From Candidatus Parcubacteria bacterium (lineage in GTDB: Bacteria > Patescibacteriota > Minisyncoccia > UBA6257 > 2-01-FULL-56-20): a DNA stretch of 45,161 bases. The stretch lies in contig DAIDJL010000002.1 in NCBI GenBank assembly GCA_027450205.1, positions 269,007 to 314,167 on the forward strand, read 5' to 3'. The notes under the pieces were generated by a model that was given only the letters and a program-made list of their open reading frames with translations, was not told where the DNA came from and did not search any database. Shown here piece by piece: positions 28,008 to 28,901 of this stretch; position 1 is the first letter of the stretch, and each line of letters starts with the position of its first letter. A program made the position numbers and the translations under genes.

Positions 28008-28036
28008 TTGCAATTGCCGGATTGCCGGATTATAAT
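28008..28036 (+). promoter_or_regulatory. Promoter with operator-like tandem TTGCCGGA repeat, leaderless
   Basis: TTGCAA (28008-28013) and TATAAT (28031-28036) have an exact 17-base spacer, and the ATG is 8 bases after the -10. The spacer consists of two 8-base TTGCCGGA units (28014-28029) plus one base. A regulator bound there would block RNA polymerase directly. The same unit, inverted, recurs inside the gene. Confidence 0.75.
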
Positions 28037-28044
28037 CTGCGCAT

Positions 28045-28734
28045 ATGAAAGAGACCGGCAAGGAGCGTTTTATTCTTACAAAGGCCTACGAGGTCGCTTA
28101 TGCGCTGTTCCGCCTGGCAGCGCAGATGCAGGAAAAGGACTTTGCCGAACAGCTCCGGGCATCCGGCGCCGCACTGCTCGCCGCTTCTGCCGCGGAAGAC
28201 TATGCCGCCGCCGGGCGCTCGCTCCGGGTTATGGAGTGCCTCGTCAAATTCGGGGGGGATGTCGGCCTGATCGGCACCCCGAACGTGGATGTGATGACGA
28301 GAGAGATCTTTGCTCTTGATGCGGCAATCGCCGAACGTCGGACTGCCGTAAAGACGGACGAGGTGAATGTTGCCGAAATATTTTCCAAGCCGGAGATCGC
28401 TGAACGCTCTGTGGCTTCGGAACCGGCAATCGATAAAGAGCCGGTAAGTACGGAATCTTTCCGCTCCGGAGAACCGGCAATCCGGCAACCGGCAAACAAT
28501 GATTCCTTAATCCGGCAAAATGCCATATTGGAACGAATCCGGCAATCCGGCAATTGCCGATTAAAGGAAATACAGGATATTTTGCCGAATACAAGCGAAC
28601 GAACGATCCGCTACGATCTGCAGACGCTCCTTGAGCGCGGGCTCATAGAGCGGATCGGCAATGCCGGACCGTCGGTTTTTTACCGCGCGAATATCAGCGT
28701 GGGCGCCGGAGAGGACATTCCGGTGATGGGGTAA
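28045..28734 (+). CDS. Helical protein with C-terminal winged helix-turn-helix (DeoR-like), probable regulator
   Basis: A 229-residue protein in three parts. Residues 1-90 form an alpha-helical domain ('FILTKAYEVAYALFRLAAQM'), perhaps a four-helix bundle. A variable linker (about 100-155) is partly encoded by CCGGCAA repeats. Residues 156-225 form a winged helix ('QNAILERIRQSGNCRLKEIQ', 'TSERTIRYDLQTLLERGLIE') resembling DeoR-type DNA-binding domains. The promoter contains an inverted copy of a 19-base sequence found in the coding region at 28539-28557, so autoregulation is plausible. Target genes are unknown. Confidence 0.72.
   Translation: MKETGKERFILTKAYEVAYALFRLAAQMQEKDFAEQLRASGAALLAASAAEDYAAAGRSLRVMECLVKFGGDVGLIGTPNVDVMTREIFALDAAIAERRTAVKTDEVNVAEIFSKPEIAERSVASEPAIDKEPVSTESFRSGEPAIRQPANNDSLIRQNAILERIRQSGNCRLKEIQDILPNTSERTIRYDLQTLLERGLIERIGNAGPSVFYRANISVGAGEDIPVMG
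28423..28560 (+). repeat. CCGGCAA heptamer cluster within the regulator gene
   Basis: CCGGCAA occurs at 28423, 28474, 28482, 28489, 28512, 28539 and 28547, plus one at 28055. The pairs at 28474/28482 and 28539/28547 keep the same 8-base step as the inverted pair in the promoter (28014/28022). Confidence 0.8.
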
Positions 28735-28760
28735 CTTTTCCCCCGTCGACACGTTATATT

Positions 28761-28795
28761 TTGTGCAGTTCGAAGGAAGCGTAGTATAGTATAAT
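28761..28795 (+). promoter_or_regulatory. Promoter of a candidate small RNA
   Basis: TTGTGC (28761-28766) is followed after 18 bases by TATAGT (28785-28790), which overlaps TATAAT (28790-28795). No start codon follows at the usual leaderless distance. Confidence 0.55.
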
Positions 28796-28797
28796 GG

Positions 28798-28901
28798 TTA
28801 CAGGTTCGGTGTGAGGCTGAACCGCAAGTAGAAAAGTGGACTTTTGTTAGGTCGACTTCTTTATTGCTCCAGCCTCGCCAAAAGCGAGTTTTTTCTTTTT
28901 T
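28798..28901 (+). ncRNA. Candidate small RNA of about 100 nt, unknown class
   Basis: A stretch with a promoter in front and a strong terminator behind but no convincing ORF. It contains a stable hairpin (GGTTCGG / CTGAACC, 28803-28823, loop of 7) and a second partly paired region. The bases just upstream and at the 5' end (GTATAATGGTTAC) resemble a tRNA D-arm, but no acceptor stem or T-arm can be formed, and the SRP RNA signature is absent. It may be a regulatory RNA or an attenuated leader of the surface-protein gene that follows. Confidence 0.5.

Follow-up and report, generated by a model that had tools for sequence, protein, structure and literature searches.

In the genome of a Candidatus Parcubacteria bacterium (860 kb in 8 contigs, 96.5% complete), a gene for a predicted DNA-binding protein carries the same short repeat, CCGGCAA, in the spacer of its promoter and within its coding sequence, and this raises the question whether these copies are operators through which the product controls its own expression, or whether a repeat has merely spread into a tolerant part of the protein. 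The gene is considered here within the whole stretch of DNA that was analysed (the window; 45,161 nucleotides), and then in the host genome and in its relatives. Neither this regulator family nor arrays of this kind in Patescibacteria were treated in any paper found in the literature searched (open-access, with few subscription papers).

The regulator gene and its sites

The features of the gene, in window coordinates, are the following:

28008-28013, + strand: -35 hexamer TTGCAA of the regulator gene promoter
28014-28030, + strand: promoter spacer of 17 nt, sequence TTGCCGGATTGCCGGAT
28014-28029, + strand: tandem putative operator TTGCCGGA TTGCCGGA (= TTGCCGGATTGCCGGA) occupying the spacer; operator role inferred
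28031-28036, + strand: -10 hexamer TATAAT, with the ATG (28045) 8 nt downstream
28045-28734, + strand: regulator gene, 229 aa, with a match to HTH_DeoR
28054-28353, + strand: four-helix bundle, residues 4-103, of the S23/Xcc0516/Avd fold (pLDDT ~98)
28354-28497, + strand: low-confidence linker, residues 104-151 (pLDDT <50 at 134-148)
28498-28689, + strand: DeoR-type winged helix, residues 152-215, from profile match and model
28055-28061, + strand: internal site CCGGCAA close to the start codon
28423-28429, + strand: internal site CCGGCAA
28474-28495, + strand: trio of internal CCGGCAA sites (28474, 28482, 28489; steps of 8 and 7)
28512-28518, + strand: internal site CCGGCAA
28536-28557, - strand: perfect 22-nt inverted copy of 28010-28031, holding CCGGCAA at 28539 and 28547
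28548-28559, no strand: palindromic junction of sequence CGGCAATTGCCG, the form that head-to-head pairs most often take among orthologues
28582-28588, - strand: internal site TTGCCGA, 28 nt past the preceding inverted copy, a distance often seen in orthologues

The spacer contains CCGGCAA twice, in inverted orientation, and the coding sequence contains it eight times (28055, 28423, 28474, 28482, 28489, 28512, 28539 and 28547), with 8-base steps at 28474/28482 and 28539/28547. The preliminary description of the locus had claimed a spacer made of two repeat units, eight internal copies with two such steps, and a winged helix in the product, all of which held, the winged helix being of the DeoR type; it had also claimed a 19-base inverted repeat between 28539-28557 and 28010-28028, which held too and is actually longer, the arms 28010-28031 and 28536-28557 being complementary over 22 nt at 100%. 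The transcript is likely to be leaderless or nearly so, its start being inferred from the distance between the -10 hexamer and the ATG; because the 5' arm sits in the promoter, upstream of this likely start, an mRNA hairpin between the two arms is excluded. On the 3' side of the gene, window positions 28760-28890 contain a terminator-like hairpin (CTCGCCAAAAGCGAG TTTTTT) without a clear + strand ORF; this stretch could conceivably be a small RNA, and it has no Rfam match, a search of the window and of four yraN upstream regions having returned tRNAs only and no known RNA element.

The structure model of the protein has a mean pLDDT of 85 and shows the linker between the two domains as disordered. 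By structure comparison, the bundle matches 2rld, 2gsc, 8ub8 and 4dwl with Z of 14.3-16.0, the best match being 2rld_B (Z 16.0, rmsd 1.1 over 97 residues) and the next unrelated bundle scoring 11.2; in a sequence search of solved structures, the only hit was a weak one, to a spore coat protein (E=0.01), and was taken as chance. The DeoR-type HTH profile (PF08220) is matched at 34.8 bits against a curated cut-off of 21, and by 29 of the 29 aligned orthologues at E<=0.01; no Pfam match to the DeoRC domain was found in the protein, and NCBIfam equivalogs score far below their cut-offs. A full-length DeoR/GlpR repressor is excluded, the HTH being C-terminal and the sugar-phosphate-binding DeoRC domain absent.

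Rarity, conservation and coordinated drift of the site

Within the window CCGGCAA occurs 26 times against 11.5 expected, a count reached in none of 100 shuffles, and the eight strict copies in the coding sequence compare with a mean of 1.4 under synonymous-codon shuffling (p=0.003, the floor of 300 such shuffles). A looser form of the motif, NCGG(C/A)AA, has a density of 21.8/kb in the regulator gene against a mean of 3.7 (range 0.8-6.7) in 22 other genes of the window; since some of these unrelated genes are themselves mildly enriched, the loose motif counts for little by itself, and the argument rests on the size of the excess in the regulator gene and on its recurrence in orthologues. In pattern searches of the entire host genome, the 15-mer CCGGCAATCCGGCAA has three exact copies, all within a single 540-bp stretch at this locus, and few near copies elsewhere. 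Near matches that might have been further targets (C2:256759, C4:34814, recA) lie within coding sequence and look like chance; a genome-wide (REP-like) repeat or an uptake sequence is excluded by the lack of any many-copy spread at unrelated places.

The gene was found in 33 of the 38 genomes of its family, and a closer examination covered 29 orthologues. In all but one of their ORFs (28/29) the loose motif is more frequent than in synonymous shuffles (p<=0.01); it occurs at -75..-1 upstream in 24 of the 29, against 3.9 expected (p=5e-5), and a variant of it lies inside the promoter spacer in 20 of the 28 with a recognisable -10. Neighbouring copies are arranged as direct repeats with a step of 8 (35 cases) or 7 (15), or head to head as CGGCAATTGCCG with a step of 7 (23). 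In the linker, where the repeats of the regulator read as PAI, IRQ and SGN peptides, copies in the orthologues use either strand and more than one reading frame, which accounts for the repeated peptides seen in the shadow frames; insofar as the copies are operators, which is inferred, the sequence of the linker would have been shaped by operators embedded in coding DNA.

That the constraint acts on the DNA is shown also by codon choice at the conserved Arg and Gln positions that the repeats cover near the winged helix, compared with equally conserved ones of the same kind about twenty codons further on. The Arg codon is CGG at R157 in 19/29 and at R166 in 20/25 orthologues, against 7/29 at R186 and 1/29 at R189 (Fisher, R166 vs R186 p=9e-5; R157 vs R189 p=6e-7), and the Gln codon is CAA in 41 of 46 cases at Q158/Q167 against 8 of 19 at Q193.

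The distribution of the gene is wider than the family: a profile search recovers it in 105 genomes of a sample of 200 from the order and, across the phylum, in 20 of 287 sampled genomes at E<=1e-10. One relative (L035), labelled Armatimonadota, sits on a 5.5-kb metagenome-bin contig, where a binning error is possible. No relative of the regulator was found among viral contigs (IMG/VR), and a phage origin is accordingly without support. Most of the coding sequences examined from the order's other families are likewise enriched in CGGCAAT repeats, but the promoters there often lack them; it therefore seems that the internal array predates the promoter sites or has been retained more widely, and autorepression at the promoter cannot be the whole story. 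This wider retention is the strongest hint that the array may have a role of its own.

The site itself changes from lineage to lineage, and does so in concert. The unit is CCGGCAA in the host, GCGGCAA in G022, G019 and G020, TCGGCAA in G013 and G027, CCGGAAA in G003 and TCGGAAA in G007. The coding variants of a given genome agree with those of its promoter (p=0.001, 17 genera) and with those upstream of the gene yraN (p=0.0045, 15 genera), in tests that used one genome per genus, by which shared ancestry is reduced, if not fully removed. In G007, TCGGAAA is found seven times in the regulator gene and four times upstream of yraN; in G003, CCGGAAA is found seven times in the gene, five in the promoter and four in the yraN region. 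Unlinked places that change together indicate a shared trans-acting factor. Where the site is most changed (CGGAAA; L033 in G003, L026/L027 in G008/G007), the winged helix is altered too, with Y190N in the recognition helix and a wing motif changed from GGP to RRN/RKN; these substitutions are no more than a suggestive lead for determinants of specificity.

A second target beside yraN and comM

The sites upstream of yraN form a second cluster, which is intergenic, between the dksA-like/comM cluster and yraN, and unlinked to the regulator gene; in the host genome it reads AATCCGGCAAATTGCCGGATTGCAGGATTAAAT (~C2:196512-196544, L038). When 38 genomes were searched for the 16-mer with at most one mismatch, most matches fell in the regulator gene or in the yraN region, the few further coding matches looking like chance, and the reversed control gave 0. 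The sites of the yraN region have no clear promoter-spacer position. A role in natural transformation has been proposed (PMC12455585) for the helicase ComM and for YraN, a helicase-associated nuclease.

Two genomes, G009 and G017, keep the yraN-side sites, and the regulator gene was not found in their assemblies; another binding protein may serve there, or the gene may have been lost to draft gaps. G021, also without the gene, has copies of the site after clpP (L183, 1490-1640), which may be a remnant of the regulator gene or a third target; copies in the same clpP 3' intergenic position occur in G022 (L076, 1490-1520), a member of the same genus.

The region upstream of yraN also carries arrays of a different palindrome, TGTTTGTCGGCAAACA in the host genome (C2:196612-196627 and 196716-196731; L117/L038), where it is confined to this place. 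It drifts between lineages, being TGTTTAGCGCTAAACA, TGTTTGTCGACAAACA, TGTTTGCCGCCAAACA or TGTTTCACGTGAAACA in other genomes (e.g. L108, L109, L111, L112, L118, L124, L169), with some 2-8 copies per array, the last of which often overlaps the yraN start codon (the protein begins MFSAKH). Tens of nucleotides 3' of the putative operator upstream of yraN there is, in addition, a conserved stretch, roughly CCCGATAATGCGATAAAACCTA followed by TAAACAAAAATGTTT (L117, L126, L116, L122, L125, L108, L114).

Proposed autoregulation, rival explanations and known systems

The sites, their placement, the constraint at the DNA level, the coordinated drift and the second target are shown by these comparisons; that the protein binds the sites, in which direction it regulates, how it oligomerises and what the internal copies do are matters of inference only, there being no binding or expression data. 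On this basis, the product likely controls its own gene, probably as a repressor, through operators that lie in the promoter, within the coding sequence and in the comM/yraN control region; its binding to them, the repression and any looping are all inferences. The winged helix would recognise the 8-bp unit TTGCCGGA / TCCGGCAA at the promoter spacer, in the coding array and in the dksA-comM/yraN region; occupancy of the spacer would exclude RNA polymerase and yield negative feedback, to which the internal array may contribute by acting as a roadblock, by titration, or by forming a DNA loop with the promoter ~0.5 kb away, while the second target would place the transformation genes comM/yraN under the same control. 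Proteins of the S23/Avd fold are pentamers, a statement for which no supporting paper was met in the open-access literature searched; if the bundle of the regulator is pentameric as well, one particle would present several winged helices on flexible linkers, and such a multi-armed particle would be better matched to arrays of short units than to one palindrome. On this mechanism, a preference for TTTCCGAT sites is expected of the G007 protein, and one for TTGCCGGA of the G000 protein. A bolder reading, compatible with the data but less likely than not, is that an oligomeric, multi-arm regulator built on the four-helix bundle binds chiefly to its own gene, which serves it as a platform, that promoter, array and comM/yraN constitute one system setting the level of natural transformation in these ultrasmall bacteria, and that the linker is in part dictated by the operators.

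Three other explanations have to be weighed against autoregulation. That a different DNA-binding protein occupies the sites, the regulator binding elsewhere, is unlikely: it can point to G009 and G017, with yraN sites and an undetected regulator gene, but the densest cluster of sites is the very gene for a winged-helix protein, and the winged helix is altered where the site is most changed (G003, G007/G008), although this last point is only suggestive. Still less credit can be given to the proposal that the operators are confined to the promoter, the coding copies having arisen merely from a conserved peptide (RQSAIL..IRQSGNCR) combined with codon preference. The copies proximal to the HTH do encode a conserved peptide, and the loose motif is slightly enriched in some other genes; however, synonymous shuffles which preserve the peptide fall far below the observed copy number, the linker copies span several frames and both strands, and the Arg and Gln codons at these positions are unlike those of other conserved Arg and Gln residues of the same domain.

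Equally remote is a small selfish or slippage-driven repeat to which a tolerant linker gave room for expansion and which then spread locally, with the promoter copies as passengers. Tandem 8- and 7-bp steps and the variable length of the linker do resemble expansion, but this explanation does not account for spacer copies in 20/28 orthologues, for the codon-biased copies in the winged helix, for the unlinked locus or for the joint change, and the abundance of copies that it would lead one to expect at unrelated places in related genomes was not found. The preliminary description had offered the choice between autoregulation, through the promoter and an internal site, and a repeat family spread into the linker: the former is now well supported, if by inference only, and a loop from the promoter to the internal sites is still a possibility; the latter is disfavoured, leaving the copies in the spacer and at yraN, the codon bias in the winged helix and the coordinated drift unexplained. 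Both comparisons that could separate the two favour autoregulation, the double repeat being absent from unrelated regions of the genome and orthologues keeping sites in promoter and coding sequence alike, with matching lineage variants; the yraN-side target and the coordinated drift lay beyond what the single sequence could reveal.

Regulation in Patescibacteria is almost unstudied experimentally, and a regulator, its site, the lineage variants of that site and a probable regulon (the regulator itself and comM/yraN) can now be named, the predicted regulon being testable outside a host that is hard to grow. Variation of the site matched at three places amounts to a natural experiment on the co-evolution of regulator and operator, and the linker would be, if the inferred operator function is correct, a clear case of protein sequence moulded by operators within coding DNA.

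Sites in or beside the gene of the protein concerned are known from parS sites inside parB/spo0J and from iterons that control rep genes; in contrast to these, no partition or replication partner genes were seen adjoining the regulator gene, and its second target is the control region of transformation genes. The HTH is of the type found in DeoR, GlpR and AgaR, and the DeoR family includes autoregulators with several operators; here, however, the HTH is C-terminal and its partner is an S23/Avd-like bundle, without a sugar-phosphate-binding domain. The fold of the N-terminal domain is common to S23 (the 23S rRNA intervening-sequence protein) and Avd (2rld, 2gsc, 4dwl), which are single-domain proteins (target lengths 107-117), whereas in the regulator the bundle is fused to a DNA-binding domain. 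The closest precedent for the proposed mechanism is LacI, which lowers its own expression via a transcriptional roadblock at operator O3 (PMC3711431), a self-roadblock resembling that envisaged for the regulator. LacI also has an auxiliary operator, O2, within lacZ, and intragenic operators and looping are familiar from that system. LacI employs few palindromic operators, whereas the regulator has about ten short units distributed over spacer and coding sequence in several frames; these sites are conserved across genera and drift together.
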